From a virus, in IMG/VR virus record IMGVR_UViG_3300010885_032796, positions 1 through 64,000 of that record: a stretch of DNA of 64,000 nucleotides. One strand, given 5' to 3'. The notes under the pieces are model-generated. The model was given only the letters and a program-made list of their open reading frames with translations. It was not told where the DNA came from and searched no databases. Of the stretch, positions 7,078 through 52,363 are shown piece by piece. The position numbers and the translations under genes were made by a program. Positions within the stretch are counted from its first letter, which is position 1, and each line of letters opens with the position of its first letter.

Positions 7078-7495
7078 TGGTTCTTCCTTTTTTGCCGGAA
7101 AAAAATGTTTCTTCGGGAGAAGGAAAAAGTGTGTCTGTCACAAACCACCGCCGGCGTTTCATGTCGGCTGCTTTGGCTGAGCCCGGCAGCCCTTCTTTTG
7201 AAACCCATATCCACGCTTGCACATATGCGCCTTCTTCGTTACCCAACGTTACAGTATTATCCAGCGATATAGCAGCGTTGTCGTCTACCTCGATAATTCC
7301 TTCGTCCCTGCATTCTTTTGCTGCGGTTACGTATATGTCGCGCAGCTCCGAGTGTTGCGTTTGCGCAGCCTCGTTAACTTTGATTGCTAACACGCTGTTT
7401 GGTCTGATATCTTTCAGATTTTCAAAACGGATAGCCAGCCAGCATGCAATTTCGTCGCGCGGAATATCGCCTTCTAGTTCTCTTTCATTTATCAT
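7067..7495 (-). CDS. Hypothetical protein, 142 residues
   Basis: The ATG at 7495 overlaps the preceding stop as ATGA. The middle (AKECRDEGIIEVDDNAAISL) and AYVQAWIWVSKE suggest an alpha/beta fold, and the C-terminus is Lys/Arg-rich. It resembles the general class of small phage proteins with AYVQAW(V/I)WV segments. No function can be given. Confidence 0.6.
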   Translation of the reverse strand: MINERELEGDIPRDEIACWLAIRFENLKDIRPNSVLAIKVNEAAQTQHSELRDIYVTAAKECRDEGIIEVDDNAAISLDNTVTLGNEEGAYVQAWIWVSKEGLPGSAKAADMKRRRWFVTDTLFPSPEETFFSGKKGRTNDQ

Positions 7496-7884
7496 TGTTC
7501 GTCATCCAGTTCGTCTTTTGTTGTTGCCGTAAATGGTCGACGGTTGCGCCGTGGCGTTATATACATCGGGTGCCGGTACAACACTTGCCGGCCGCGCGTT
7601 GTTTTAATTTCAAGAATATGTTCGTCGCCTATTTGCACGGCACCTCGCGAGCGCTTGCTGTATTGTATTATTGGCACTTTGGTGCTGCCGTTGCTTCGCG
7701 AAACGTACCCAATGTCCCGGCTCGGGCTTTCGTCGTAACCCCAAGCTTGACCAATGTCGGCGCCGCTTGTGCTGCCGTAAATAATTGACACACGCGTTTT
7801 ATCTGCCATGCATTTTTCTAGGACAGCAATAACATCGTCTGCCGTGTTTTCGTTATACGACGTGCCTTGCGCGCTAACTTTCAT
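7492..7884 (-). CDS. Phage protein of the YYG...GxSxG...P type
   Basis: 130 residues. RVSIIYG...GQAWGYDESP...IGYVSRSNGSTKVPI follows the layout of a widespread small phage family (R-x-x-Y-G...W...GxxxRSxGxxKxP, then a Gly-rich loop and IxxIxT). The usual GG before the final strand is RGAVQIG here. The role is unknown. It couples by ATGA overlaps to both neighbours. Confidence 0.6.
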   Translation of the reverse strand: MKVSAQGTSYNENTADDVIAVLEKCMADKTRVSIIYGSTSGADIGQAWGYDESPSRDIGYVSRSNGSTKVPIIQYSKRSRGAVQIGDEHILEIKTTRGRQVLYRHPMYITPRRNRRPFTATTKDELDDEQ

Positions 7885-8543
7885 GGCGTTACTCTTTGAG
7901 GGTTAAACAGCGTTAAACCAATTGAGCGCAGCTTCTCCTTTACTTCCGCCAACGACACGGCTCCAAAATTCTTAGCTGCGAGCAGTTCTTTTTCTGTGTG
8001 TTGCGTCAGCTGGTAGACCGTGTCAATGCCTAGCGCTTTCAGGCATTTACGGCAACGCACTGACAGGTTGAGCACAGCCACTGGCGACGGCGCCGTGATC
8101 TGCGTAACCGTGGCCGGCACTTTTGGCGTAGAAAATGAGTAGTCAAGTGTGGCTGCGTTTACGTGAATCAGAAACTTGGAGTACAGCGCGCAATTTGGCA
8201 ACCAGTCGTCTTGGATCGGCAAGATCTCGACAAAGTCGTCACCACCCACCAGCTCGCGGCTTGTTTGGTACCAGTCATCGAACGCGCCGATATTTGGGTT
8301 ACAGCCTTCGGCGTACGCTACTGGCTGGCCGCGCATTCTGTTGTTGCTCATAAGATAGACGCCGCTATCGTGGACAAACAGAATAGCCGGCCCTGCTGGC
8401 GTTCTATTTGTTATTGGCGGCAAACCCAGCTCGGCTAGTGCTTCATCTGTGTCGTTTTCGTAGCCCATGTCAAACTCAGTTGCGGCTTTAGCGTCTCCAA
8501 TAAGCCGCCGCAAATCTGTTGTGTCAAAACTGCAAACACCCAT
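7881..8543 (-). CDS. Fusion: DUF3085-like N-terminal domain with RNA polymerase alpha C-terminal domain (alphaCTD)
   Basis: 220 residues. The N-terminal part has LFVHDSGVYLMSNN (about 55-68) and YAEGCNP...FDDWYQTSRELVGGDDF (about 77-105), like DUF3085 of plasmids and phages. Residues about 152-213 match the alphaCTD: LSVRCRKCLKALGI then TEKELLAAKNFGAVSLAEVK. Aligned from memory to E. coli alpha, Arg265, Cys269, Lys271, Gly296, Ser299 and Glu302 are kept; Asn268 is Lys and Lys298 is Val. AlphaCTD binds UP-element DNA, sigma region 4 and activators. A detached copy could redirect host RNA polymerase or act as a DNA-binding module. ATG 8543 has AAGGA upstream. Confidence 0.8.
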   Translation of the reverse strand: MGVCSFDTTDLRRLIGDAKAATEFDMGYENDTDEALAELGLPPITNRTPAGPAILFVHDSGVYLMSNNRMRGQPVAYAEGCNPNIGAFDDWYQTSRELVGGDDFVEILPIQDDWLPNCALYSKFLIHVNAATLDYSFSTPKVPATVTQITAPSPVAVLNLSVRCRKCLKALGIDTVYQLTQHTEKELLAAKNFGAVSLAEVKEKLRSIGLTLFNPQRVTP

Positions 8544-8544
8544 G

Positions 8545-8742
8545 TTAATTTCCTTGTTCGGTATTGAAGGCTTTGGTGGCTTTTGCTATAGCGGCATTTG
8601 CGTCTGCTATAGCGGTTTTGATGGTGTTGTCTTCGTCAGGAAACATGCCGGCCATTTGCTCGGTTTGCCAGATAAGCGCCGACAGTGCCGCACGCAGATT
8701 TTGCGCAATTGATTTAAAATCCGGTTTAGCGTTTTTAGCCAT
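8545..8742 (-). CDS. Small helical protein, 65 residues
   Basis: ATG 8742 has AAAGG upstream and overlaps the last base of the preceding gene. The product is one or two amphipathic Ala-rich helices (ADANAAIAKATKAF). There are no Cys residues and no membrane segment. No family is recognised; it may be an accessory partner of the alphaCTD protein encoded directly after it, but that is only position. Confidence 0.55.
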   Translation of the reverse strand: MAKNAKPDFKSIAQNLRAALSALIWQTEQMAGMFPDEDNTIKTAIADANAAIAKATKAFNTEQGN

Positions 8743-14544: not shown

Positions 14545-16032
14545 CTAGTTCTGGCCGGGGTTGCTCACAACGCGCCGCCGCGTTGCGCCGTTGTTAGCCG
14601 GCTTTCCAACGCGCGTGTAGATACCGCGAGTATCTGCCGACAGACAGCGACCCTCAGCCCAGTGGCGAAGGTTCTCAATCTGGTCAGCAGACGTCACGGC
14701 AACGGGGACGACATTCTGGGCGGCGTCAAGCAGCGGGATGTCAAGCAGCGCAGCCAAGCGGCAGCACGACTTGATCTCGGCACCAGTCCAGTTAGCGTCG
14801 TCAGGACGGGGCTGTTTCTCGTCCAGACCGAAATGCTGGAGATAGATGCCCCAAATCTGCTGCCGCTGCTCAACACCCGGCAGGTCAACAAAGAACACGC
14901 CGTCGAAGCGCTCAGCGCGCGCAAACGGCGCTGGGAGCTGGCTGGCGTCATTGCAGGTGCCGATGAAGAACACGTCGCTGGTGTGGTCATTAAGCCACGT
15001 CAGCAGCGTGCCAAACAACCGGGCAGACACACCCGAGTCATTCTGACCAGAGCCGCCAACGCCGGCAAGGCCCTTCTCGATCTCGTCGACAAACAGGATG
15101 CACGGGGCCATCGCATCGACCTGCTTGAGCGCACGCCGCATGTTGCCCTCAGACTCGCCCACAAACTTGCCCATCAGGCTGCCAAAGTCCAGCATGACGG
15201 TCGGGCGACCCACCTCGTTACCCAGCGCCTTGGCGAATTGCGACTTACCGCAGCCCGGAGGCGACAGGAGCAGAACGCCCTTGGGCCGGCGATCCGCACT
15301 GGTCTCGTTCTGCCGGCGCATCGACCGCAGACAGAACGACTTCACGTTTTCCAAGCCGCCGAGATTCTCAAAGCTGGCGTCACCGCGATAGAGCGTCATT
15401 GTGCCGCTCTTCTCCAGTGTCTGCGCCTTGATCGTCCAGACGGTGTCGGCCGTGAGCTTCTCGTTGCGCACGAACGACAGGGCAAACGCGTTCTCAGCCT
15501 CGGTGTTGGTTAAACCCCGGGCAGCGTCTACGACGACCTGCACGTCTTCTTTCGTCGGCGCAGCAAAGCCGCTATCCGGCGTGCACAGGCTGTTGCAGAT
15601 CTTGGTCAGCTGCGCCGTGTCGGGCAGATCGTGATGCACGACCGTGAAGAGCTTCTCAATCTCAGGCTGCAGCAGCAGAGTTGGCGAGACGACTACAACG
15701 TGCTGGCTTTCAGACTTGCCAGCTACAAGCTGGTTAGCCAGCGTCTGCAGCACTTTGACGCTGCTGAAAAACCGGTTGTAGTTCTTCAGCACCAAAACCT
15801 TAGTTGGCTTTTCAGTCGGCACCTTGAAGAACTTGAATGCGTCTTCAGGCGCCGGTGCCTTTTCAAGACCAGAATACAGGCCCTTCTCGATGTCCCACGT
15901 ATCAATAGCCCAGTTCTTTTCCTTGGCGATTGCGTACAAAGACGTAATCGCCTCGTCGCACTCCTGCGACTCGACCCAGATACCGGCAAAACCGGCGTGA
16001 ACGAGTTCCTGAAATTCTTTTGCGAACGACAT
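14545..16032 (-). CDS. Ycf46-like AAA+ ATPase
   Basis: 495 residues. The N-terminal half (AGFAGIWVESQECDEAI at about 13-29, then WDIEKGL) is the region typical of Ycf46-like ATPases. The AAA+ core follows: Walker A SPPGCGKS (257-264), Walker B CILFVDEIEK (311-320), sensor 1 FIGTCND, arginine-finger region RAERFD and sensor 2 WTGAEIKSCC. All catalytic residues are present. Such ATPases form hexameric rings that remodel proteins. Together with DUF2997 and DUF1257 encoded just upstream it recreates the cyanobacterial/plastid ycf46-ycf35 neighbourhood. The substrate is unknown. Confidence 0.85.
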   Translation of the reverse strand: MSFAKEFQELVHAGFAGIWVESQECDEAITSLYAIAKEKNWAIDTWDIEKGLYSGLEKAPAPEDAFKFFKVPTEKPTKVLVLKNYNRFFSSVKVLQTLANQLVAGKSESQHVVVVSPTLLLQPEIEKLFTVVHHDLPDTAQLTKICNSLCTPDSGFAAPTKEDVQVVVDAARGLTNTEAENAFALSFVRNEKLTADTVWTIKAQTLEKSGTMTLYRGDASFENLGGLENVKSFCLRSMRRQNETSADRRPKGVLLLSPPGCGKSQFAKALGNEVGRPTVMLDFGSLMGKFVGESEGNMRRALKQVDAMAPCILFVDEIEKGLAGVGGSGQNDSGVSARLFGTLLTWLNDHTSDVFFIGTCNDASQLPAPFARAERFDGVFFVDLPGVEQRQQIWGIYLQHFGLDEKQPRPDDANWTGAEIKSCCRLAALLDIPLLDAAQNVVPVAVTSADQIENLRHWAEGRCLSADTRGIYTRVGKPANNGATRRRVVSNPGQN

Positions 16033-19971: not shown

Positions 19972-20148
19972 TTATTTCTTGAGTTTTTCTTGGGCTGCAG
20001 AAGCAGCGGCTTGGCATGTCTGCGCAAGGGCGGACGCCAAACCAACTACACCGCACAGGAACACGTAGCCTGTGAATTTAAGGCTGTCTTCCACCCACTG
20101 AAACTCCCAATCTTCGCTGGGCTGAATATTCGGACTGTTATTGCTCAT
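19972..20148 (-). CDS. Small membrane protein divergent from terminase
   Basis: 58 codons. It has an acidic N-terminus with Trp residues (EDWEFQWVEDSLKF), one membrane helix (GYVFLCGVVGLASALA) and a Lys/Ala-rich amphipathic end. Its ATG (20148-20146) and the terminase ATG (20147-20149) overlap in the palindrome CATG. The ribosome site is weak. The order membrane helix then charged tail is compatible with a holin-like or accessory membrane protein; the function is unknown. Confidence 0.5.
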   Translation of the reverse strand: MSNNSPNIQPSEDWEFQWVEDSLKFTGYVFLCGVVGLASALAQTCQAAASAAQEKLKK

Positions 20149-22063
20149 GATAAACGCTCGCTGTGACGATAAAGCTCACGCTGTGCCGCCAGACGGCATA
20201 GCTGAGTTAATCAGTAACTTGATGACAATCGACGCTACTGACCCGGCGTCTGTTCACGCCAAGGCCGGTATATTGAAAGAGCTGGCGGCTCGCTACGCGT
20301 TTCCGTCGCTGGAGCCAATCCTGCCTCTTGTGTTGAATTTGAATGGCTCGCCGTACACCCTTCGCGACCACTTTGCTTTTTCGCCTTTGTTTCGCGTGCT
20401 TACGCCAAAGAGCCAAGTGTGGTGTACTGGGCGGCAGGTGTCTAAGTCTACGTCGCTTGCCGCGCACGGAGTTGTATTTGCGAACTCCGTGCCGTTTTCT
20501 AAGACGCTATACGTCACGCCACGGTTCGAGCAGGTGCGCCGGTTCAGCAACAATTACGTGCGCCCGTTTATAGATCAGTCGCCGGTAAAAGCGCAGTGGA
20601 GCGACACGACCACAGAGAACTCGGTGTTGCAGCGCTCGTTTCGCAACAACTCGATGATGCTGTTCAGCTTTGCGCTGTTAGACGCTGATAGAACCCGCGG
20701 AGTGAGCGCCGACCGCGTTAATTTTGACGAGGTGCAGGATATGGATCCTGACCACGTGCCAATTATTCAAGAGACCATGTCTTACTCCAAGTGGGGTATC
20801 ACATACTATACGGGTACTCCAAAAACGCTCGACAACCTGTTGTATGGGTTGTATCAACGGTCGTCACAAGCTGAGTGGTTTGTTCCGTGCCATTCGTGCG
20901 GCAAGTGGAACATCCCGTCGCTTGAGCACGACCTTGACGCCATGATTGGCGACTACAGCATTCACATCAGCGAGAAGTATCCCGGGACTGTGTGCGCTAA
21001 GTGCCGGCAACCGATTAACCCGCGACACGGCAGGTGGGTACATAGATACCCAGACAGGCGTTGGCAGTTTGCTGGCTATCATGTGCCGCAGCTTATCTTG
21101 CCGCTGCATTTTGCCGACCCTGAAAAGTGGTCGACGCTGCTGCTCAAGCGCGAAGGCTACGGCAATATGACACAAGCACAGTTCTATAACGAAGTCATGG
21201 GCGAAAGCGTAGACACAGGCCAGCGCCTTATCAGCGAAACTGATTTGCGCGCTGCTTGCCTTTTGGACTGGGAAAACAAAAAAGAACCTGACCCAAAGTG
21301 CATGAAGAACCTGAACGACTACAAGCACAGAATGCTGGCTATCGACTGGGGTGGTGGCGGAGAAGCCGGGGTCAGTTTTACCGTGTTGGCTGTGCTTGGG
21401 TTCCGCAATGACGGCACAATTGACGTCTTGTGGGCCAAACGACTGCTCATTGGCGGCGACCACCTGCAGGAAGCAATTGAGTGCATGAAGTGGTGCAACT
21501 TGTTCAACTGCGACTTCGTAGCTCACGACTACACTGGCGCCGGCACAGTTCGCGAGACTGTGATGGTGCAGGCTGGATTCAACCTCGACCGCGTAATGGC
21601 GATGCGGCTTGTCCGGTCGGCGGCTCAAGATTTACTTATCTATAAGCCGCCGACCGAGATCAATCACCGCGCGCACTACAGCCTCGACAAGACCAGATCG
21701 CTGCTGTACACGTGCCAAGCCATCAAGCTGAAACAAGTCAGGTTTTTCCAGTACGACCGTATCTCGCAGGAATCCCCGGGGCTTGTCTCAGATTTTCTGG
21801 CCCTTGTCGAAAACAAAGCTGACGCTAGGTCAGGCAGCGACATATACACCATTACGCGCAACGTACTTCTGACAGACGACTTTGCGCAGGCTGTCAATAT
21901 TGGCTGCGCGGCGTTGTGGCATATTAGCGACGCATGGCCAAACTTTGCCGCTATTGCTGGCGTAGCCCGGCTTACTGAGAAACAGGTAGAAACTGAAACC
22001 GTGAACTCTGCCGACGACTGGGCTGACGATTCAATTGGCAACAGTTACTTTGGCCGATACTAG
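20147..22063 (+). CDS. terL: Terminase large subunit
   Basis: 638 residues. The ATPase part has Walker A GRQVSKST (95-102), Walker B VNFDEVQD (191-198) with catalytic Glu and motif III TGTP (222-225). A zinc ribbon follows (CHSC 248-251, CAKC 283-286), as in GpA-like terminases. The nuclease domain begins at AIDWGGGGEAG (Asp400), then HDYTGAG (Asp461), with a later Asp near 565 or 577. TerL cuts and pumps DNA into the prohead. It is on the plus strand in a minus-strand region; its start shares CATG with a small membrane gene and its stop shares CTAG with the next gene. No good Shine-Dalgarno is seen. Confidence 0.92.
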   Translation: MINARCDDKAHAVPPDGIAELISNLMTIDATDPASVHAKAGILKELAARYAFPSLEPILPLVLNLNGSPYTLRDHFAFSPLFRVLTPKSQVWCTGRQVSKSTSLAAHGVVFANSVPFSKTLYVTPRFEQVRRFSNNYVRPFIDQSPVKAQWSDTTTENSVLQRSFRNNSMMLFSFALLDADRTRGVSADRVNFDEVQDMDPDHVPIIQETMSYSKWGITYYTGTPKTLDNLLYGLYQRSSQAEWFVPCHSCGKWNIPSLEHDLDAMIGDYSIHISEKYPGTVCAKCRQPINPRHGRWVHRYPDRRWQFAGYHVPQLILPLHFADPEKWSTLLLKREGYGNMTQAQFYNEVMGESVDTGQRLISETDLRAACLLDWENKKEPDPKCMKNLNDYKHRMLAIDWGGGGEAGVSFTVLAVLGFRNDGTIDVLWAKRLLIGGDHLQEAIECMKWCNLFNCDFVAHDYTGAGTVRETVMVQAGFNLDRVMAMRLVRSAAQDLLIYKPPTEINHRAHYSLDKTRSLLYTCQAIKLKQVRFFQYDRISQESPGLVSDFLALVENKADARSGSDIYTITRNVLLTDDFAQAVNIGCAALWHISDAWPNFAAIAGVARLTEKQVETETVNSADDWADDSIGNSYFGRY

Positions 22064-22554
22064 TTGTTTTCTGGATTGCCGTTGCAGCCAAACTTGCGTA
22101 CAGCAGAGTTAATGTCGCTGTTCATAAGTTCGATGCCTTTTTCTGTAGGCGTAAAATCAAACTCGTTGGTTTCGGTGTTGAAGTCAACGCTCAGAAAGCC
22201 GTCTGCCGCAGCGCGCTGGCGGATGTTGCTAAACAACCGCTCGCCAATTGCCACCATCAGCGCGCCAATCTTTTTATTAGCTTCTTCTATTGAGTCTGCA
22301 CCAATTGCGCTTACACCGTTTTCGTGAACAGTGGTGTGGTCTCTCACGATAGCCGACACTTCTTCGGCCGGCAGGAAATCGCGTAATGAGTTGGCCATGG
22401 CCATAAAGTTTTGCGGGTTTGACAGAACCTCGGTCATTTGTGACGGATCTCGCATAACCACGTTGGCCATGAACGAGCCAACTATGTAGTTGCGCAAATC
22501 ATCGATAGACCCGCCAAAAAACCGCTTTGGTTCGCTGTTTTCCTCAAACAACAT
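22060..22554 (-). CDS. Hypothetical phage protein, 164 residues
   Basis: ATG 22554 has AAGGAG upstream. The protein is helical with SLRDFLPAEEVSAIVRDH and a conserved-looking end FTPTEKGIELMNSDI. Its TAG and the terminase TAG overlap in CTAG. The neighbour of the terminase may be a small-terminase or head-assembly factor, but no domain supports this. Confidence 0.55.
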   Translation of the reverse strand: MLFEENSEPKRFFGGSIDDLRNYIVGSFMANVVMRDPSQMTEVLSNPQNFMAMANSLRDFLPAEEVSAIVRDHTTVHENGVSAIGADSIEEANKKIGALMVAIGERLFSNIRQRAAADGFLSVDFNTETNEFDFTPTEKGIELMNSDINSAVRKFGCNGNPENN

Positions 22555-22861
22555 TGTGGGCTCCTTGCATTAGGTTGGCATTGGCGACAGCGGCGTGATA
22601 AACGCCTTGCGCCAAAGTACGGGCTCCCGCTGCAATACGCAAGCGTTCCAGATGGCTGGCATAGTTTTCGTCGGAATAGACCATAGCTTCCGCGCTCGAA
22701 AACGAGTGCGGCTTGCCGGTCATGCGATTCTCGCCAGTCATGATGCGCCCGATTGCGGCCATCTTGATAGCCTGCCGGGCGTCTTCCAGCTCCATCTCGT
22801 GCATGACGGCGTCGCCCCATTGGCGGGCGGCTGTTTCGATTGCAATTGCTAGGTGATGCAT
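22544..22861 (-). CDS. Phage protein with TGKPHSFSSAE motif
   Basis: 105 residues. A helical N-terminal part is followed by MTGKPHSFSSAEAMVYSD and a long helix (HLERLRIAAGARTLAQGVYH). The TGKPHS..SAE segment recurs in a small family of phage proteins often found near the terminase. Its function is unknown to me; it might be a DNA-packaging accessory. It overlaps the next gene by 11 bases. Confidence 0.65.
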   Translation of the reverse strand: MHHLAIAIETAARQWGDAVMHEMELEDARQAIKMAAIGRIMTGENRMTGKPHSFSSAEAMVYSDENYASHLERLRIAAGARTLAQGVYHAAVANANLMQGAHNVV

Positions 22862-22882: not shown

Positions 22883-23599
22883 TTACTCTCTACACAGGCC
22901 GCCGACCAGCCACATAGAGCCAAGGTCTATTGTTTGTTCCGTGTACAGCTCGGCTGTAAACTGTTCGTCTAATGCGCGCAACGTCATTGCCGCGGCGTCG
23001 GCGTCTAGCCGCAGTTCGTGGCGCTGATTGCCAAAACGCAACAACGGTTCGAGCGTTTCAGGCGTGATCAGCTCTTTGGTGCGAGCAATCCCGCTTAACG
23101 TCGCGTCAAAGTTTTCCGCAACTCTGTCGGCCGTTTTCTTTTTTACGCGCCACGTATCGTATGCGGTAGCGAGCGTCTTTTTCTGCTCGGGCGTAAGCTG
23201 ATCGGCAACTGCTGGCGCTACGGTGCTGACTAAACAACGCATCGTGTAGCTCCAATCAGTCGCGTCGACTACTCTAAAATACGCGCCGCCATCCCATTGC
23301 TTGAGTTTTTTGCCGTTAAACGTGGGTTCTTTTGTGTACTCTTTGCGCGTGTCAGTGTATTTGACCGCAATAGCGGACTCCCCTTTCGTGCAGATGTCGG
23401 CAAGGTATTCCCCAGCGGCAGCTTTGGTCGTAAATACGTAGTCAGTAACTTCAAAACCTGACAGCGTTGAGAACGTTCCGTTATATGCGTTATCGCCGTA
23501 AGCGTTGCGTAGCTCGTCTACGGTAGCAAAATAGTGCTCAGTCAATTCTTTCTTTGTGAGTTTTCCGTCAAATGCACAAGTGACAAAACACGCACCCAT
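22883..23599 (-). CDS. Hypothetical protein, 238 residues
   Basis: ATG 23599 follows CGGAG. MGACFVTCAFDGKLTKKEL resembles the start of phage proteins that begin MGAYF.T..F.G.LT. The middle has a CLV and a TDW segment, and the C-terminus is helical with DLGSMWLVGGLCRE at the end. No catalytic motif is seen. The function is unknown. Confidence 0.6.
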   Translation of the reverse strand: MGACFVTCAFDGKLTKKELTEHYFATVDELRNAYGDNAYNGTFSTLSGFEVTDYVFTTKAAAGEYLADICTKGESAIAVKYTDTRKEYTKEPTFNGKKLKQWDGGAYFRVVDATDWSYTMRCLVSTVAPAVADQLTPEQKKTLATAYDTWRVKKKTADRVAENFDATLSGIARTKELITPETLEPLLRFGNQRHELRLDADAAAMTLRALDEQFTAELYTEQTIDLGSMWLVGGLCRE

Positions 23600-23601
23600 G
23601 G

Positions 23602-23847
23602 TTACTCCGGGTTGTTGAGATCTCGCGTAGCTAGCTGTTCTTTGCGCGTTAGCTTGCGCTTGGGAAACTTATCCGCGTGGCACATAGCGCACCGGCTTTG
23701 CCGACACCCTGAGCACCGCTGCGTTTTGCGAAAGCGGCCGACGTCAGGAACAAATTTGTTATCGTCCGGCCCGAAGTGTCCGGCTAACCGCTTGTATTCT
23801 TTTGCGCGGTTCTCAATAAGTTGTTTTTCTTCGTGATAGCGTTTCAT
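23602..23847 (-). CDS. Small zinc-binding protein (RFRK...CxxC...CHxDKFPKR)
   Basis: 81 residues from ATG 23847 (GAGG upstream). RFRKTQRCSGCRQSRCAMCH and ADKFPKRKLTRKEQLA match a widespread small family in bacteria and phages with two Cys pairs and a conserved DKFPKR. Probably a zinc ribbon; the role is unknown. The gene ends the protein-coding run before a tRNA-like region. Confidence 0.7.
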   Translation of the reverse strand: MKRYHEEKQLIENRAKEYKRLAGHFGPDDNKFVPDVGRFRKTQRCSGCRQSRCAMCHADKFPKRKLTRKEQLATRDLNNPE

Positions 23848-23887
23848 TGCTGTTATGCCTCGCACAAGAGCTGTATGTAACACAAAA

Positions 23888-24073
23888 GCAGCAGGCCGGA
23901 GTCGAACCGGCTGTGATAGATTTGTACGGTTACCTGTCAATTCAGGCTTTAAGACGCCACATCGGCTTGCGAATCAAGCAACCGGCGACGCCCCGACGCT
24001 TCGTCCGTTCAGGTGATCAGCCCATATCCGTCTATCACTTCAAGCTAAAACGCGCACCCCGCGTATCTGCTGC
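23888..24073 (-). other. tRNA-like 3' half (T arm and acceptor) with distant complementary 5' segment
   Basis: On the minus strand GCCGG-TTCGACT-CCGGC (23895-23911) is a canonical T arm, followed by CTGCTGC (23888-23894). No anticodon or D arm fits at normal distance. The exact complement GCAGCAG lies at 24067-24073, giving a closed 186-nt unit with several internal hairpins and no open reading frame. It could be a degenerate tRNA, a tRNA with an insert or a tRNA-like structural RNA. The T arm itself is convincing; the long closing is inference. Confidence 0.35.
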
Positions 24074-25180: not shown

Positions 25181-27814
25181 TTATCCGATTTCTTGCGCCG
25201 TGGTGGTCTCTTGCGGGTCTTGCCAGAATTTATCGCACCAACCAGTCGGTACGAGAATACCCGGCATATTCTGCACAATTTCTTCTCCAGAAAAAAGCCC
25301 CGCTTTACTGAGCAGCTCAATTATCGCCAGCCAATTGGGCGGCGCGCTTTTCTGTAGTTCAAAATACCGGTCTATGGCGCGGCGGTTGAGCCACCAATTA
25401 TCGGCACGGCGCAACAGGTAGTTGTACGCTTGCTGCTTGTTTCTAGGGCGCGGTAACACGGCCAGCTTACCTAGTTGGATAGCATTGTTTAGCTCGCCCA
25501 TAAGCGTGATGTGCGCTGTTTTTGGGCTGACCAATTTGTTCAGCGCGCACGGCAAATGGAACGCTGTGCCGTAAGTCTCGTCTAGCCAGCGGTGCAGGTC
25601 ACGCAGCACGACCTCGGTAAGCGTGCCGGTTTGGGCGGCTAGGCTCATGCGGCTACGCAGCGTGCGCTGGATGTAAGCGGGAAGCACATGTTGCAGCACC
25701 GAGAAGTCTGTATTAGCTGCAGGGGCTGTGCCGTTGATCAGCTGCCAGCCGTAACCAGTTGCTATAGCGGCGCACGTTGGAGTTAACCGCACGGTCACAG
25801 GCAGGTTATGGCACCGTGTAACTGCCGCGCTGAATACGGTGTCGTCAAAGGCGTTTGAAGCTAGTAGCGGCCAGTCTGATTCGTTGCTGGCTTTAACCAG
25901 CTGTTGTGCGTTGTGGCTTTTACGCAACCCCGCATATTGTATATGAGCGCAGTTCAAGGCTGCGGCAATGCGTACAGCCGCGTTAAAGTTTGCGCCGACT
26001 ATGCCAATAGCCGCGCTGTCTTTACGCAGCACCGGCGCCAGTAGCTGCGCTGTGATCCCGGCAAACACAGTCCAGATGAACGAGTTTTCATAGCTGGGTG
26101 TTAAAAACTGCCGGATAGCTGGCGGGGCTACAGGCGTTGGCTCGGGAAAAGATATCTTTGATCGGTTGCGCTGCAGTAGATTAGCCAGCGTGATTTCGCC
26201 GTCTGTGCCAAGTTCGTATTGCGCGAACCGGAACACAGACGCATACTCGTCCCAGCCAGCGCGCCCTGACACCATGATTAGCTCAGGTTGGTGTAGCTGG
26301 ATTGCGAGCAAGTGGCTGCGCCTATTCCACGCCCGGTCAAACACAATGAGTTTGCCGTGGGGCGCTGCGTGGGCCGCGGCGAAAGACAGCAGGCCCATGC
26401 GCTCTATCTTTGTAGCCGTGTCGCAGAACTCCAGCGCGTCGTTTTTTATGTAGATAGTGCCGGAGTACAGCTTTTCGCCGTTGTCAGCTTGGATGATTTT
26501 TTTGATCACGGGCCGGGCTGAGCAAATCTGGTGGCCAAGCTGGTTCCACCAGCTGTTGTCTTTCTCTACGATGACCCAGCGTCGGTGCGCTTTTGTCGGC
26601 GCTGTGGGCGCGACGGCTAAGGCTGTTATGACCCGGCTGGCGAACGTCGCAGACAAGTTTACGTCGCACTTCAGCAGAAAATGCTGCAGCTTATCGTGCG
26701 GCACCATGAGCCTAGACGCGAACGAGTAGGCTGATATTTCATTCATGCCGCGCAGTGTTTTCTGCAAGCTGTTTTGCCAAGTCGCAGCGCTACGCCGGAT
26801 TTCAGCGAGCGTGGTAATGGCGGGAGCTTCGCGCACCCTAGCAGCTGGCGCGAGCGGCGTTACGCAGACGTAACCTTTGGCGTGGCATGCCCGGCTGACA
26901 AGTTCTGGCGTAATCGTGTTGCCGTGAAACATGCGCGGAATAGGCGGGAACGCAAGCCAGCTGGGGCCGTAGCTGGTAGCTTCGGGGCCATTGTAGCTGG
27001 CCATGATGGGCAGCAGATCCAAGCCGTGCGCGCGTTGTTTACACTGAGCACGCAAGGCCCAGAATGGGTCGTCTACTACAAACTGCGAGCTTTTGAGTAG
27101 CTCAGGCCCCGGTAGTGTGGCTGTCTTGAGCAGGAAGTACCCAGCTTCTGGGCGTTGCCGGGTGTAGCCGCTGGTCGGTATGAACGTGCTTTTGGTCGCG
27201 AAGTCCTCGGCGTACTGCACGACTAGCACGCCTGTTGGGCGCCCGGGTAGATCGTAGAACGGGAACACGATGCTGGCGCCGTCTGCCCTGAGCTTAGTGG
27301 GTTTGGGGCGGCCCACTTCTGAGCACAAGTTTACGATCTGGTCGTGGTGCGCTACGCCGACTAGGCCGTCAGCGCAAATTTCTTTGCCGACGCCTAGTTC
27401 CCGCAGGCGGCAGGCGATCACGTCGTCGCCGTGGTTCCAGATCTGCGCCTCAGCGTCGCACCAGAAGTTCTCGACAGCCAACTGGCGCCGTAACCCTCGG
27501 TCGTACTGCCCGGCTAAGTTATCTTTATCCCCGGAATTTACCAGTCCAAGGTCGGCAAACCGGGTCAATGCAGCCGGCAGGCTTGTATTCCATATCAGCG
27601 CGCCAAACGTTATGATATCTCCATGGGCCGCGCACCGGTCGCAGTGCAGCCAAATACCGTCTGTTGTGATATCGTCGAACAGGTGCAACGCAGTTTGTTG
27701 GCATAGCGGACACTGAACAACTGCTGGAAACGCAGGTTTTTCCAGCTCAATACCCAAAGCTGACAGCGCCCCCATGTGGTGCTGACGGCGGACTAAACAG
27801 GTAGGCAAACCCAT
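25181..27814 (-). CDS. Large protein with N-terminal primase-type zinc finger
   Basis: 877 residues. Residues about 34-70 (CPLCQQTALHLF...WLHCDRCAAHGDIITFGALI) form a zinc ribbon like the CHC2-type finger of DnaG primases, including the GDIITF after the last Cys pair. A middle IVFPFYDLPGRPTGVLVVQY resembles the start of the primase catalytic core. I find no clear Toprim DGD or helicase Walker motif; AIGIVGANFNAAVRIAAAL is not a proper Walker A. The rest is not recognised. It may be a diverged replication protein. Its ATG overlaps the ATG of the divergent plus-strand gene in CATG. Confidence 0.6.
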   Translation of the reverse strand: MGLPTCLVRRQHHMGALSALGIELEKPAFPAVVQCPLCQQTALHLFDDITTDGIWLHCDRCAAHGDIITFGALIWNTSLPAALTRFADLGLVNSGDKDNLAGQYDRGLRRQLAVENFWCDAEAQIWNHGDDVIACRLRELGVGKEICADGLVGVAHHDQIVNLCSEVGRPKPTKLRADGASIVFPFYDLPGRPTGVLVVQYAEDFATKSTFIPTSGYTRQRPEAGYFLLKTATLPGPELLKSSQFVVDDPFWALRAQCKQRAHGLDLLPIMASYNGPEATSYGPSWLAFPPIPRMFHGNTITPELVSRACHAKGYVCVTPLAPAARVREAPAITTLAEIRRSAATWQNSLQKTLRGMNEISAYSFASRLMVPHDKLQHFLLKCDVNLSATFASRVITALAVAPTAPTKAHRRWVIVEKDNSWWNQLGHQICSARPVIKKIIQADNGEKLYSGTIYIKNDALEFCDTATKIERMGLLSFAAAHAAPHGKLIVFDRAWNRRSHLLAIQLHQPELIMVSGRAGWDEYASVFRFAQYELGTDGEITLANLLQRNRSKISFPEPTPVAPPAIRQFLTPSYENSFIWTVFAGITAQLLAPVLRKDSAAIGIVGANFNAAVRIAAALNCAHIQYAGLRKSHNAQQLVKASNESDWPLLASNAFDDTVFSAAVTRCHNLPVTVRLTPTCAAIATGYGWQLINGTAPAANTDFSVLQHVLPAYIQRTLRSRMSLAAQTGTLTEVVLRDLHRWLDETYGTAFHLPCALNKLVSPKTAHITLMGELNNAIQLGKLAVLPRPRNKQQAYNYLLRRADNWWLNRRAIDRYFELQKSAPPNWLAIIELLSKAGLFSGEEIVQNMPGILVPTGWCDKFWQDPQETTTAQEIG

Positions 27815-28991
27815 GTCAAATATTCCGTTGGATCAGATACAGGACGTTAGTGGCCGCGAAACCCACAGGCTTACCGCTCTTCATCCCGCGCCCGATTTTG
27901 TTAAATCAGCTGCGCCGGAACGGCTTTCTGGCGATGGCACACTTCCTCGCCACTTGTATGCTGATCCGCGCAACAAACTTTACCCATGTCACACTGCGCC
28001 TGCAACATGGATGTCTGCGTTGTTTTTCACAGACAAACAAGCCAGCTTTGATAAGGCGACAGCGGACGCTATCCAATCCAAGATACACAAAGCAGCTGAG
28101 TATTTCGGCATTTCTGGTCTTGTAGCCGAACTGGAGAAGACGTCGGCAGCCCAAAGCGGGTTGTCTGAAAGCCAACTGCCGGACGACGCTTTTGCTGTTG
28201 TCTGGGTAGGCGACAATGGCAACACAGAACGCCACTGGCCGATGCGCAACGCTACGGAAGTCAAGTTTGCCGCTGCGCATTTCCAGAAGTACCGGGACGA
28301 GTTTGTATTCGAAGACCGGCACATGATTGCCACCAAGATCCTGAAGAAAGCCGCGCAGTACAGCGCTGACACGTCTGATACAAACGGCTCGCTGGAAATG
28401 GCCGCTGGCCTCGGCGCCTGTGCGGCAAAGGTCGCCAGCCAAATGATTAAAGACCGCGTACGGCTCACGCAACGGGACCATGGCCCGCTGGCCGCTGAGT
28501 TGTCAAAGTTAGCTACTGTGATTGACCAGCACCCGGAGAAAGCTCGGGAACTGGACACGCGGCTAAAGTTGGCGAGCGCGGTCGACCAATTTGACAAGAG
28601 CACGCAGCTGCACCGGCTTTACGACGCCGGCGGGTTGTCGCGGCCCGAAGAAGTGCTTTTTGCCATTACCGAGAAAGTCGCTCGTGACTTCATGCAGCAC
28701 AACGTCGAGACCACCACGGGCAACGTGTATGCCCTTGATGATCTGGAGAAGCTGGCCGTTGAAGACGTCCGCGAATGGATGGGCGACGACTTCGCTGACG
28801 CTGTGAGCGCTGGCGGTGTTTACATGGACCGCGACAAGCTGGCTGAGATTGTCCCCACACTTGACCGGGGTATGGCAGCCACGCTTGACCGGCTTGTGCA
28901 AGAGAAGAACGCCGGCGCTGTTGTGAAGCAGGCGGCAGCAGCTGATACGCTGCTGCCATTGAGCAAGCTATACGAGTTGGCTAAAGGCTGA
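27813..28991 (+). CDS. Unknown phage protein, 392 residues
   Basis: The N-terminal part has YADPRNKLYPCHTAPATWMS and ALFFTDKQASF (about 49-75). It is followed by LPDDAFAVVW, PMRNATEVKFAA and a helical second half with DLEKLAVEDVREWMGDDF. I recall proteins of this layout in large phages, possibly virion or prohead components, without a sure name. It is plus strand, with its ATG overlapping the ATG of the minus-strand primase-like gene. AGGTAGG lies upstream as a possible ribosome site. Confidence 0.6.
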   Translation: MSNIPLDQIQDVSGRETHRLTALHPAPDFVKSAAPERLSGDGTLPRHLYADPRNKLYPCHTAPATWMSALFFTDKQASFDKATADAIQSKIHKAAEYFGISGLVAELEKTSAAQSGLSESQLPDDAFAVVWVGDNGNTERHWPMRNATEVKFAAAHFQKYRDEFVFEDRHMIATKILKKAAQYSADTSDTNGSLEMAAGLGACAAKVASQMIKDRVRLTQRDHGPLAAELSKLATVIDQHPEKARELDTRLKLASAVDQFDKSTQLHRLYDAGGLSRPEEVLFAITEKVARDFMQHNVETTTGNVYALDDLEKLAVEDVREWMGDDFADAVSAGGVYMDRDKLAEIVPTLDRGMAATLDRLVQEKNAGAVVKQAAAADTLLPLSKLYELAKG

Positions 28992-34584: not shown

Positions 34585-37500
34585 TTATGTACTCACGATA
34601 GCGAGAATAGCGGCGCGTAAAGTAGGGTTTGTTTGCAGCTGGCTGATAAACGCCGTCATAAACGCTGCGTTGCCGGGTATATCACCGGGGTAGCCACTTG
34701 GCAGCACGCCAGTAGCACCCGGCGGGCCGCACGGCCCTGTGGCCCCTGTGTGGCCCACGCCGGCCGTTCCGGGCACACCAGACACTCCAGACACCCCTCT
34801 GTCGCCCGTGGCGCCACGCGGGCCTGTAGGGCCTGTAGCGCCCGTAAAACCGGCCGGTCCTTGGGTGCCAGCTACGCCGGGAAGCCCCTGTAAGCCCCGG
34901 GCGCCAGAAATACCGCGCAAGCCAGATACGCCGTTCGTGCCAGCGTCGCCTTTATCGCCCTTTGCGCCTGTATCGCCCTTTGCTCCAGCGTCACCAGTTT
35001 TTGTGAACGACAACAAGCACTGCCCGGTGAACAATCCTGCCGCCGCGGGTATGTTTGCCGGATTTGCCTGCGTTACGTAATTTACCGCCAGCTCGTAGTA
35101 GTTGCTGTGGTTTGTAGCGCCAGCCACGTTATAGATAACAAAACCGGGGGCTTGCGTAGCCGCGAATGTCGGCGTCGAGACAGTGAGCGTGCCTTTGATG
35201 GCACTAGAGCTAGCTGCGAAGTTAGCCAGCCACAGATCTACACCAATACTGTCGGCGGCGGTCGTGCTGATGTACACAGCCGTAGTTGTAGCGACGTCTG
35301 CGCCACTGAAGTTGATTTTGCCACCGCCCGGGTTGCCTGCTCCCTGCGAGAACAATCCGTAAGTGAATCGGATTGAGTCGCCGCCGTAATTTCCAGACAT
35401 TCCGGTTACGCCCGGCAGGCCCTGCACACCAGTTTCGCCTGTCAAACCAGTGGGGCCAGTCATACCTGTGGGGCCGGTTTTACCAGTCAGCCCGGAAGGC
35501 CCTACCGCGCCGCGGTCGCCGGTGTTGCCTTTGGCGCCAGTTACGCCGCGGTCGCCCGTGCAGCCTGTAGCACCTGTTGCGCCGGCGCGGCCCGGCGCGC
35601 CTACGCCCGTCGCGCCAGTTGCGCCTGTTACGCCTACGCCAGTTGCGCCAGCTGGGCCAGATGGGCCGGATGGTCCGCGCTCACCTTCTACACCGTCAGC
35701 TCCGTTTTGGCCAGCCTGTCCCGGTATGCCAGTTGGGCCGCGCAACCCAGTCGGGCCCGCTGGGCCGGCAATCCCGCGGTCACCTTGCGGGCCGTCTGGT
35801 CCTTGCGGCCCAGTTGGGCCTGTGGGGCCTTCGGGTCCGGTTGGGCCGCTGCCGCTGCCACCAGAACTAGACGAGCTACTCCCAGAGCATGTTGCAACTT
35901 CCAGTTCAATCAACGCGGTTAGTTTTGTGTCTTTGCCGGCTGGGGTGAAAGTGAATTTGCCAGAACCTACTTGTTTGCCATCAGCTTTAACAACGATTCC
36001 GCCGTTGTCGCTGACCAACTGCGACATAGCAAACGTTTGCTTAACAGAGTACTGCGAACATTCTGCCGACTGCGGATTAGTTTTTGTGATTTCTGTTTTT
36101 GTGCCATCAGCGCGAACTGGTGAGTAAGTTACTTGCCCGCCCCAGCTAACATCAACATCAACTTTTGTTGGTTCTGGCGTAAATGTTAAACAATCTGTCA
36201 GTGCGCCAATACGCAAGTCCTGTGAGATCACGTACTCGCACGTGTCGATTTGCCTGATAGATATGTAGCCGTAACCTTTGGACCCGTTGTTGATATATTG
36301 CGGACCAACGTCCACAGACGACGAACCTTGATCAAAGTTGAATTTCAGGTTTTGGCATGGCCGCGGAATCGTCAAGTCCATCTGGATGCCAAAACTACAC
36401 TCGTTGCTATTTACGTCGATTGCCGACATAGAGCCGGTTGCGTACGTATTGCCGTATTCATCTTTTACGTAGATGTAACCGCCGCTAAACGTCGTGCATT
36501 TAGGCGTTGGCAGAAACAGCTCAAGGCCGAGCTGGAAATCAAACAAGCACTGGCCGTTCTCACCGCTACCGACGTTGCCGCCCGATACAGTGAAGTACCC
36601 ACGAGGCTCGTTGCTTTCGTAGATGCTTACCTCGCCGGATCGCATGTAGATAACAGGGCACGCAATCTGCGGGATTGGAATATCGATAAACGTGTCAAAC
36701 AGGAACGTACACGTACCGGGGTCTGTACATGTAGCCGGTGTACTGCGTGTGCGCAGGTCAAACCGGCTTCGGCTTGTGAAGTCTCCGTTTTGCGGTACTT
36801 GCCGAGTTTGCGCTGTACCGGTGTATGTAATGTCCGGGCATTTAGGCGTCGGTACAGGTATGACCAGATCTAGTGTGATTTCAAAGTCGCACGTGTCGGG
36901 TACGTCGCAACCATTACCCGGGGTTACCACGCGCACAATGTTGAACTGGCTGGTGCGGTTGCTGACGCAGGACGTACCAGCGTAACCCACAGTCGTTGTG
37001 AACGACTTGCTTTGTATGTCGATACAGGGCGGCACAGGAATGGGGACGACAATCTCTAGGTCAATATCAAACGCGCACGTTGGAATACTGCAGTCGTCGG
37101 TAGGTATCTTCGACGCTGTGATTGTGAACTTGTTGCTGGCGTCTTCTACGCACGGCGAATTGGCATAGCCGGAGTTCACCGCAAACGTCTTAACGTTGAT
37201 CTGCGGGCAAGGCGGTTCTGGAATCGGGATGTTGAGGCGTAGATCTAGAGCAAAATCGCAACGCAGCTCTGAGTTGCAATCAAGCGGGTCTGGCGGCGGG
37301 TGGTTTACCGTAAGCGTCGACACAGAGCCGACCATGCAGCTTTCCCAACCCACTGTCTGCTGTACTGGCAAGACGGATATCGACGGGCAGGCAGGCGGAG
37401 GAATGGGAATGACCAGATCAAGATTGAGTTCAAACTCGCATGACTTCTGGTTGGTGCAGTCAATGCTCGGGTCTAGTTCAACGTAGTTAGCGCTGACCCA

Positions 37501-38655
37501 CTGGTAGCTCTTAGCGTGCGTCAGATCTACGTAGATAATTCCGTCTACGCCAATTTCTGGAAAATCGGTAAGTGATTCGTACTCGCGGCGGTTTGACGTT
37601 GACGTGACCGTAAACGTTGACGCGCGTTGCACACACGATGACCCCGCGTAGCCAACTGTTACAGCCGGGCTGTTTGCGTTGATACTGGGACACGGTGGCC
37701 GCGGGATCGGCACTACAAGATCGAGGTTTAAGTCGAATGCGCACGCGTCTGTGTCCGGCACGCGATCCATCGTGAGCGTCGATTCGCGGTCAACACACGC
37801 GCTGCCGGTATAGCCAGACGTGACAGATAGCGTTGGCGGGTTGATCGTCGGGCATTCTGGCAACGGAACTGGTATGACAATTTCTATTTTGAGGTCGAAC
37901 TCGCAAGGCTTGAGCTGGTTGCAGTTCTCGCTTGGCGCCAGCTCAGTTGCGGCGTACGTTGCTAACTCAGGCTGCCAGAAGTACACAGCGCTATCGGCAA
38001 GATAGAAAGTATCTGTAGCGCCTGTAGTCGGCAGCTGCCCAAAAGTATTTGAGGCCACTACGGTGGTTGTGTCGTTAAGCTCGTATGCAGTGCCAGTCCA
38101 CTTATATGCGGCAAGTCCGTCGATGTCGATGTAATCTACAGCGTCATCGCCTGTAGCTGGGAAGTTCGCCGTTGTGACGTATTGCTGCGCGTATTTTGTC
38201 ACGCGCGGGGCAACAACGAATATCGACGGCCGCTGAACAGCTTCTGAGTTTTCGTAGCCAGTGATAACCGTGACGCCGGTAGTGTTGATGATCGGGCACG
38301 GCGGTTTCGGGATCGGCACAGCCAGATCAAAATTGAAGTCGTATTTACACGGATCTACGTCAACTTTGGCGAGCGTCAGAATAGCGGAGGGCTCAGTGGG
38401 GATACCGCACCGCGCAGCCTCCGACGCGCCAGTTGGAGCGTACCCAGCCACAATGCTGGACGTAATCGAGAACTCGGGGCAATTTATGCCAACGTCTGTG
38501 AAAATATCGCGCGGCACGTTGGGCAGCGCGCAGTTGTAGATCGGCTTCGGCAGCGGAGTGATATTGCAGACGTCGAGCTGGATGAAGTCGAAATCGACTT
38601 TATCTACTGGCTCAATGTCGCACTGCGTATTGCTAGCAAATAAATTTTCGGCCAT
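34585..38655 (-). CDS. Large repeat and collagen-like tail fibre
   Basis: 1356 residues. About 11 imperfect repeats fill residues 20-850; each has C.F(D/E)..LDLV(I/V)PIP.P.CP.I, then V..GY..S.CV and a strand. Two repeats contain an inserted FPATG..YIDxxxxxxYKW module. A short Gly/Ser linker leads to Gly-X-Y repeats (about 937-1088), then a globular beta-rich part (about 1089-1222), a second Gly-X-Y stretch (about 1223-1315) and an end [20 protein letters not shown] like that of the smaller collagen-like gene. It is probably a fibre with receptor-binding tips. The paired Cys may form disulfides. Confidence 0.8.
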
Positions 38656-51550: not shown

Positions 51551-52363
51551 TTAAAATCCGCCGTAGGTGTGTCGTTTGTCTAGCATGCCCTGAATCTTAG
51601 CCGCGCGTTGGCTTACAGCGCCCGGTGTAATTTTCAATTTCTGCGCAATTTCCTGTGTGCTTGTACGCCGCCGCCCGTTACGCCCGAGCGTCATATCTGC
51701 AATGAGTTTATCGGTCGGTCCCAAATCGTCATAGACAAAGTTGAACCACGCATCTGCAGCGTTGTTCGCGCCGGGAATGCTGCTGGCCATTCCGTCTCCG
51801 TAGCTGTCTTCGCTTGTCTCGCGTGTCGTTGTGCCTTCTGCGAGCGGCTGGTTGAATCGCCTGATTTTTTGAATACGGCGCTTGGACAGGCCGGTGGAAT
51901 CAGCCAGCTCGTCATCTGTCGGGTCGCGCCCAAGAACGTCGTTAAGTTCTATTTCGTGTTCGTTCAATCTGGAGAAATCAAGGCCAGCCTGCTCTGGCAC
52001 GTTGATAATATTTTGCGATTGCGCCGACAACCGCCGAATACCCTGTAACTGTGAAAGCAAATGCGTGCGGACATTACCCCGCTCTGGGTCAAAACTGCCT
52101 AGAGCCTTGAGCGCCATAATTTTTGCCCGCGACTTGATCGTTGGCCCGGCCGTGTTACCGGCATAACTCGACACAGCCGTGTCGATTACGGGCTGGATTG
52201 TCTTCAACATAGCCGTGCTTGCTTCGGGCGTTTTGTTTGTCTGCCACTGCGCATATGCGTTGCTGAAATCATCATGCACACCAGCCGGGCGAGAACCAGA
52301 AAACGGTCCGCGAATATCGCCAAGAATAGACGGCGCGCCAGTAGTTGTGATTTTGTCGCTCAT
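51551..52363 (-). CDS. Phage sigma-70 family factor
   Basis: 270 residues. A long N-terminal part with helices (region 2-like SRAKIMALKALGSFDPERGN) is followed by LNEHEIELNDVLGRDPTDDE then LADSTGLSKRRIQKIRR (region 3, about 132-168) and a C-terminal DKLIADMTLGRNGRRRTST then QEIAQKLKITPGAVSQRAAK (region 4, HTH). It resembles FliA-type sigma factors. It would direct host RNA polymerase to viral promoters, probably late genes. It couples by ATGA to the gene upstream and lies inside the baseplate operon. Confidence 0.82.
   Translation of the reverse strand: MSDKITTTGAPSILGDIRGPFSGSRPAGVHDDFSNAYAQWQTNKTPEASTAMLKTIQPVIDTAVSSYAGNTAGPTIKSRAKIMALKALGSFDPERGNVRTHLLSQLQGIRRLSAQSQNIINVPEQAGLDFSRLNEHEIELNDVLGRDPTDDELADSTGLSKRRIQKIRRFNQPLAEGTTTRETSEDSYGDGMASSIPGANNAADAWFNFVYDDLGPTDKLIADMTLGRNGRRRTSTQEIAQKLKITPGAVSQRAAKIQGMLDKRHTYGGF

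Follow-up and report, generated by a model that had tools for sequence, protein, structure and literature searches.

Cellular multisubunit RNA polymerases are built on the alpha subunit. In the C-terminal domain of this subunit (alphaCTD), the DNA-binding 265 determinant is made up of R265, N268, C269, G296, K298, S299 and E302, and the sigma-contacting 261 determinant of D259 and E261. The domain is well known, and phage proteins bearing it have been annotated in Bacillus phage Goe8 and Microbacterium phage Mazun, neither of which, we presume, encodes an RNA polymerase (RNAP) of its own. Phages are known to target host alphaCTD: the T4 proteins Alt and ModA are reported to modify its Arg265 (PMC2988021), and Rac is reported to act on alpha (PMC7552054). 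The multisubunit polymerases of jumbo phages such as phiKZ and AR9 are described as lacking alpha (PMC7598289), and the main text of the report on the mReC phages (Weinheimer and Aylward 2020, PMC7481178) uses neither the word alpha nor the word sigma. The literature we searched, with preprints and most subscription journals outside its scope, yielded no paper on phage-encoded detached alphaCTDs. Nor did it yield a description of a lineage such as the one presented here, of polymerase-encoding phages that lack the N-terminal domain of alpha (alpha-NTD) and carry alphaCTDs which are detached and re-usable, in one case as four tandem copies. With somewhat less than even confidence, we propose that the gene described below encodes a detached alphaCTD that acts in trans in the transcription of the phage, most probably on behalf of the alpha-less polymerase that the phage itself encodes.

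The DNA analysed here (the window) comprises the first 64,000 nucleotides of IMG/VR virus record IMGVR_UViG_3300010885_032796, which is 120,049 bp long, has a GC content of about 55% and is labelled G000. On its minus strand, a gene with an ATG start (P0001, 7881-8543) encodes a 220-aa protein in which an N-terminal domain (residues 1-140, 8124-8543) is joined by a linker (residues 141-153, 8085-8123; AF2 block mean pLDDT of 67 for residues 141-150) to an alphaCTD (residues 154-206, 7926-8084). The gene lies among tightly packed small ORFs: upstream, an ORF of 65 aa (8545-8742, minus) ends one base before the fusion start, and downstream a gene of 130 aa (7492-7884, minus), assigned to phrog_17487 and without a Pfam family, has a start that overlaps the fusion stop by 4 bases. 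In the related loci L001, L002, L003 and L009, too, the fusion (intact or truncated) is followed by an ORF similar to this 130-aa one. Pfam matched residues 154-206 to RNA_pol_A_CTD (PF03118; E 2.2e-17, 63 bits against a cut-off of 23.8) and residues 53-109 (8217-8387) to DUF3085 (PF11284; E 1.3e-14, 54.5 bits against a cut-off of 25). Both scores are far beyond chance, and chance or contamination was rejected for this ORF. The C-terminal alphaCTD named in a preliminary description of this gene is thus borne out, and the N-terminal domain, which it had called DUF3085-like, turns out to be a full DUF3085 match. In the whole record, the fusion ORF is the only match to PF03118.

The AF2 model of the full fusion, based on a 32-row alignment, has a mean pLDDT of 87.8 and places five alphaCTD helices at residues 155-207 (pLDDT mostly 83-91). 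Compared with solved alphaCTDs, it gave VIA Z scores of 11-12 for the leading rows (Z 11.1-11.5 and rmsd 1.7-2.8 over 67-71 residues against 1z3e, 1lb2 and 3n97) and, for the leading domain-only rows of Foldseek (e.g. 1lb2, 3n97 and 7vpd), rmsd values of 0.6-1.2 over 55-61 columns, so that the fold on which the preliminary description had staked its assignment is the one predicted. In a phmmer search of the PDB with the fusion, all 46 distinct sequences that matched at E <= 1 are alpha subunits; the best has an E of 3.3e-10 and covers residues 155-212. The domain is about 49% identical to cellular alphaCTDs, and both Pfam and VIA score it far better as an alphaCTD than as any other helix-hairpin-helix family. 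By sequence and by predicted fold alike, this is a true alphaCTD. The full model of PglW, a BREX protein, was not matched by the fusion, whose alphaCTD stretch alone scored (15.1 bits against 990); membership of a defence system was rejected, as this stretch is all that is shared.

Alignment to Salmonella RpoA, with residue numbering anchored on R265, found R265, C269, L270, K271, N294, G296, S299 and E302 in the fusion, among them all six residues that had been listed as kept from inspection of the sequence (R265, C269, K271, G296, S299 and E302). The same alignment revealed changes that the earlier list did not include, namely N268 to K, K298 to V, and D258, D259 and E261 to A, V and N. Five of the seven residues of the 265 determinant are therefore kept, with N268K and K298V as the exceptions, and the 261 determinant is absent, D259 and E261 being V and N in the alignment. 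Among 19 phage alphaCTD rows chosen for alignment, from which the weakest matches (L191, L193-L197) and a broken copy (L077) were excluded, Arg265 is kept in all 19 and Gly296 in 18. A tree of 25 alphaCTD rows over 73 columns had good support for 3 of its 22 inner branches and gave no placement for the fusion row; both capture of a host rpoA tail and relocation of a standalone phage gene are therefore candidates for its origin.

The DUF3085 domain modelled alone (residues 1-146) reached a pLDDT of 92.9 and a pTM of 0.85. Its predicted order of a strand, a helix and three strands, followed by a strand, a helix and two strands, corresponds to that of a single clamp domain, slightly shortened. 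All 50 VIA matches listed for residues 1-146 are sliding clamps (beta, PCNA, 9-1-1 and T4 gp45), with Z 5.4-6.1 and rmsd 3.2-4.8 over 92-103 aligned residues, and Z scores below 8 may reflect merely a common arrangement; the Foldseek list is likewise nearly all clamps, but at E 0.13 or worse. With Z about 6, the models give a hint that suggests, and only suggests, a clamp-like fold. In a viral structure library, two uncharacterised phage proteins matched at E <= 0.001. A profile scan found DUF3085 at 34 viral and 9 bacterial loci, and the proteins share a conserved core, GVY...GGDD. The fusion query matched 2481 plasmid records, a few of them through the alphaCTD part alone and none across 80% of the query; DUF3085 without alphaCTD occurs on plasmids and in many phages. 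On plasmids, it is reported often to adjoin RadC (PMC12826799), and we found one JAB-domain neighbour. In Vibrio phage VpKK5 (KM378617.2; locus L006, 3923-4303, from the start of the phage), an unannotated DUF3085 ORF lies right at the end of the genome as deposited.

PF03118 was found in four of the five close relatives searched, the window's own record included, and there it is fused to DUF3085. The exception is L002, in which the alphaCTD was deleted, leaving a 152-aa protein with DUF3085 alone and an out-of-frame remnant of the tail. The DUF3085 parts of L001, L002, L003 and L009 are 61-64% identical to residues 1-146 of the window's protein, and the alphaCTDs of L001, L003 and L009 are 27, 30 and 35% identical to its alphaCTD; the two halves therefore evolve very differently, or the tail has been replaced. 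Diverged alphaCTD copies also match HHH_5. An AAA ATPase encoded elsewhere in the window (14545-16032, minus; phrog_8638) is about 71% conserved with L001.

Other than those of L001, L003 and L009, the DUF3085 ORFs that were read carry no alphaCTD, and a PF03118 search of 31 DUF3085-bearing viral records gave five matches at E <= 0.1, two of them above the cut-off. G005 has the alphaCTD as a gene of its own (62 bits). In G019, a protein of 160 aa has an alphaCTD-like domain at its C-terminus, and its gene directly precedes that of DUF3085, about 24 bases away; the layout in G017 (L045) is the same. By Pfam, these neighbouring copies score weakly (15.2 bits), and they are strong against a phage alphaCTD profile, which was itself built partly from the G019 copy, near-identical to that of G017. 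The two domains are fused in one lineage and adjacent in another, which constitutes a Rosetta-stone link between them. The copy in G031 is broken by a stop. A match in G014 was dropped as a generic helix-hairpin-helix in a basic protein.

Standalone alphaCTD genes occupy a defined slot near the terminase. In G005 (L079), G037 (L083) and G042 (L185), the gene lies between homologues of window ORFs 23602-23940 and 22544-22861 (both minus), G044 carries the same ORF as G042, and the genes of L083 and L185 encode 75-76 aa. The synteny is anchored by the large terminase subunit (GpA_ATPase; 20141-22063, plus), to which the terminase near the slot in the relatives is 74-81% identical. In the window, the slot is filled by a 238-aa ORF (22883-23599, minus) without a Pfam match at E <= 0.01, and the alphaCTD, as part of the DUF3085 fusion, stands 15 kb from it. 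The simple reading of this synteny would be relocation from the terminase slot, which the tree does not settle.

The phage carries a transcription machinery of its own. Outside the window, a minus-strand gene of G000 (85316-89713; L100 1316-5713) encodes a 1466-aa protein in which beta is joined to the first part of beta' (E 1.7e-70 for beta and 2.4e-49 for beta' against the PDB, along with PHROGs beta families), and another (81278-83992, minus; L099 17278-19992) encodes the remaining beta', interrupted by an intein that contains a LAGLIDADG endonuclease. Four polymerase homologues share invariant columns that include the catalytic ADFDGD motif. The division of beta' in G000 differs from that in cellular RNAPs. 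Within the window, a predicted sigma factor of 270 aa (51551-52363, minus) matches Sigma70_r3 (33.2 bits against a cut-off of 25.3), with region 4 below cut-off, and its gene shares a stretch with those of baseplate J and a tail fibre. The window also encodes a 1356-aa collagen-like or repetitive tail fibre (34585-38655, minus) that matches many PHROG tail families.

The polymerase is present in 5 of 32 related records (G000, G008, G011, G012 and G017), and sigma in 6 of the 22 searched, namely all five that bear the polymerase and G009; by this distribution, the predicted sigma is conserved together with the phage polymerase. The alpha-NTD family (RNA_pol_L, PF01193) was found in none of 19 such records (0/19), G000 included, so that no whole alpha subunit is seen in the fusion's record either; the control gave 13 of 14. 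The phage therefore encodes beta, beta' and a sigma-like protein and has no detectable alpha-NTD. Cultured phages with a related polymerase are Salmonella phage Arash (32.5% identity over 97%) and Vibrio phages D69, D181 and D148. Beta, beta' and a sigma factor are reported to have been detected by mass spectrometry in Arash virions (PMC10585845), which makes a packaged holoenzyme plausible by analogy in the window's phage. A rough gene call gave 31 upstream gaps that were 60 bases or longer; no clear UP-element or promoter motif was found in them beyond a few weak 7-mers, and they are hardly richer in AT than the record (47.5% against 45.2%).

A scan with a beta-beta' profile yielded 184 relatives, 80 of which were surveyed for alphaCTDs. 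The phage alphaCTD profile matched 14 of these 80 contigs at E <= 0.01 and 12 at E <= 1e-5; all 14 are among 50 contigs, mostly the longest, and none of the 30 others, all under 52 kb, had a match. Proteins of G042, G049, G060, G070, G071, G074 and G075 exceed the Pfam cut-off, those of G068 (20 bits) and G017 (15.2 bits) fall below it, and those of G062 and G069 resemble that of G070; the matches in G040 and G081 (E about 2e-4), included among the 14, are probably spurious. No alphaCTD was found in the other 66 contigs, many of which are fragments, although G045, G046, G055, G073 and G078, of about 200 kb, are also without it, and neither Arash nor Vibrio phage D69 had a match. The domain is therefore not a general need of this polymerase and, from its distribution, is optional in the lineage. 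DUF3085 was found in 12 of the same 50 contigs. On G049, a 198,101-bp contig whose polymerase is 83% identical to that of the window's phage, a 380-aa protein contains four tandem alphaCTDs (L187, minus 1441-2580; PF03118 156 bits in 4 stretches), and its gene adjoins a homologue of window 27813-28991.

Searches of 50,697 phage records by tblastn with three queries gave two confirmed phage alphaCTD proteins, those of Goe8 and Mazun, a rate that is not strictly comparable with that among RNAP contigs, as it rests on single sequences and the latter on a profile. The first query matched 21 records: 4 carry an rpoA annotation, 5 were found on reading to hold a complete rpoA, 2 are Goe8, and 10, unannotated, were read in part at most. 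For many 'phage' records, chance or contamination may account for the match. Mazun came from the second query, outside these 21. Five records named 'Bacteriophage sp.' (L094-L098; MT837142, MT837602, MT837710, MT836419 and MT835508) contain a complete bacterial rpoA and are likely host DNA. A further 156-aa phage protein (L082 4752-5222, plus) has a C-terminal alphaCTD (63.7 bits) on a 115.7-kb contig with no match to this RNAP; an AlpA-type helix-turn-helix in its N-terminal half was considered and dropped, since Pfam gives the alphaCTD only.

As the phage has its own beta and beta', a co-conserved sigma and no alpha-NTD, the partner of the alphaCTD need not be the host polymerase. On the reading that we prefer, the alphaCTD would bind DNA upstream of promoters through its Arg265 surface and/or contact an activator or sigma, the alpha-less polymerase would gain an upstream handle such as alpha provides in cellular polymerases, and DUF3085, possibly clamp-like, would bring the alphaCTD to the polymerase, another phage protein or DNA. 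What counts against it are the optional occurrence of the domain within the lineage, the altered N268, K298 and sigma face, the loss of the alphaCTD in L002, the lack of a clear UP-like motif, and the presence of the domain in Goe8 and Mazun, phages not expected to encode an RNAP. The preliminary description had suggested competition with host alphaCTD, tethering to DNA and bridging to sigma, any of which may hold; its domain assignment and fold stand, and the changes at D259 and E261 weaken the case for bridging through the classical 261 determinant. The alphaCTD might instead be a plain helix-hairpin-helix DNA-binding tail for a DUF3085 protein of DNA metabolism or counter-defence, with no part in transcription. 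The occurrence of DUF3085 without alphaCTD on plasmids and in many phages, its RadC neighbourhood on plasmids (PMC12826799) and single JAB-domain neighbour, its clamp-like hint, the alphaCTD-like stretch in PglW and the HHH_5 matches of diverged copies would all suit such a tail, but the standalone genes of 75-76 aa have no second domain to tether, and the match to alphaCTD far exceeds that to other helix-hairpin-helix families, so that we consider this rather unlikely.

A free alphaCTD could also act against the host: as a competitor of the host domain at UP elements and for activators, it would depress host transcription (e.g. of rRNA) whilst the phage polymerase carries on. Host take-over of this kind agrees with the kept DNA-facing residues and the identity to cellular alphaCTDs, with a tightly packed region of small ORFs such as may be typical of early genes, and with what is reported of Alt and ModA at Arg265 (PMC2988021) and of Rac (PMC7552054), and host shut-down is affordable for a phage that supplies the polymerase itself. 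We regard it as unlikely, however, since N268K and K298V may weaken UP binding, the L001 and L003 copies are strongly diverged (27-30% identical), and the fusion to DUF3085 is not needed for it. That the domain is a neutral or decaying passenger, the stolen tail of a host rpoA without a current role, would agree with its loss in L002, its divergence in L001 and L003 and the stop in G031; the open frames, an Arg265 kept in every aligned row and a standalone slot conserved in G005, G037, G042 and G044 make it improbable. Returning to a trans-acting alphaCTD in phage transcription, a broader and more doubtful idea is that alpha has been taken apart in some phages with their own polymerase: the NTD would have been dropped, and the alphaCTD would persist as an independent, interchangeable module, binding upstream DNA in trans and reaching the polymerase by way of a partner domain, here perhaps clamp-like, as a distant echo of the clamp-coupled late transcription of T4. 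The variants of the domain (standalone gene, DUF3085 neighbour, fusion and tandem) point to a movable transcription part. If the trans-acting reading is true, contact with upstream DNA can be supplied in trans to a polymerase lineage without alpha-NTD, and proteins of about 75 to 220 aa, along with the four-fold tandem, offer a small natural system for testing the alphaCTD alone; if the protein competes with the host domain instead, it represents a new route to host promoter shut-down.

Among known systems, the alphaCTD of E. coli RpoA (1lb2, 3n97) has the same profile, fold, Arg265, Cys269, Gly296, Ser299 and Glu302 as the fusion, but the latter lacks an alpha-NTD and the acidic 261 determinant, carries N268K and K298V, and is joined to DUF3085. 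Goe8_c00050 of Bacillus phage Goe8 (QDP42789.1), annotated 'RNA polymerase subunit alpha', likewise has a C-terminal alphaCTD (78 bits), whereas its N-terminal 150 aa are different, its 265-determinant residues are kept save for K298R, and the phage belongs to the Herelleviridae. Gp26 of Microbacterium phage Mazun (QNL30328.1), a 'DNA binding protein', is similarly small with an alphaCTD-like C-terminal end, but has another N-terminus, in which no DUF3085 was seen, and a diverged domain. The DUF3085 proteins of conjugative plasmids and phages share the N-terminal domain of the fusion with its GVY...GGDD core. No recognisable homologue of an initiation factor is described for the jumbo-phage polymerases of phiKZ and AR9 in PMC7598289, whereas the window's phage has a sigma-like protein. 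The mReC phages and Salmonella phage Arash encode bacterial-type beta and beta', as does the window's phage, whose beta and beta' are recognisable as cellular homologues, a feature of the mReC phages; judged by these sequences, the group to which the window's phage belongs appears to resemble the mReC phages.
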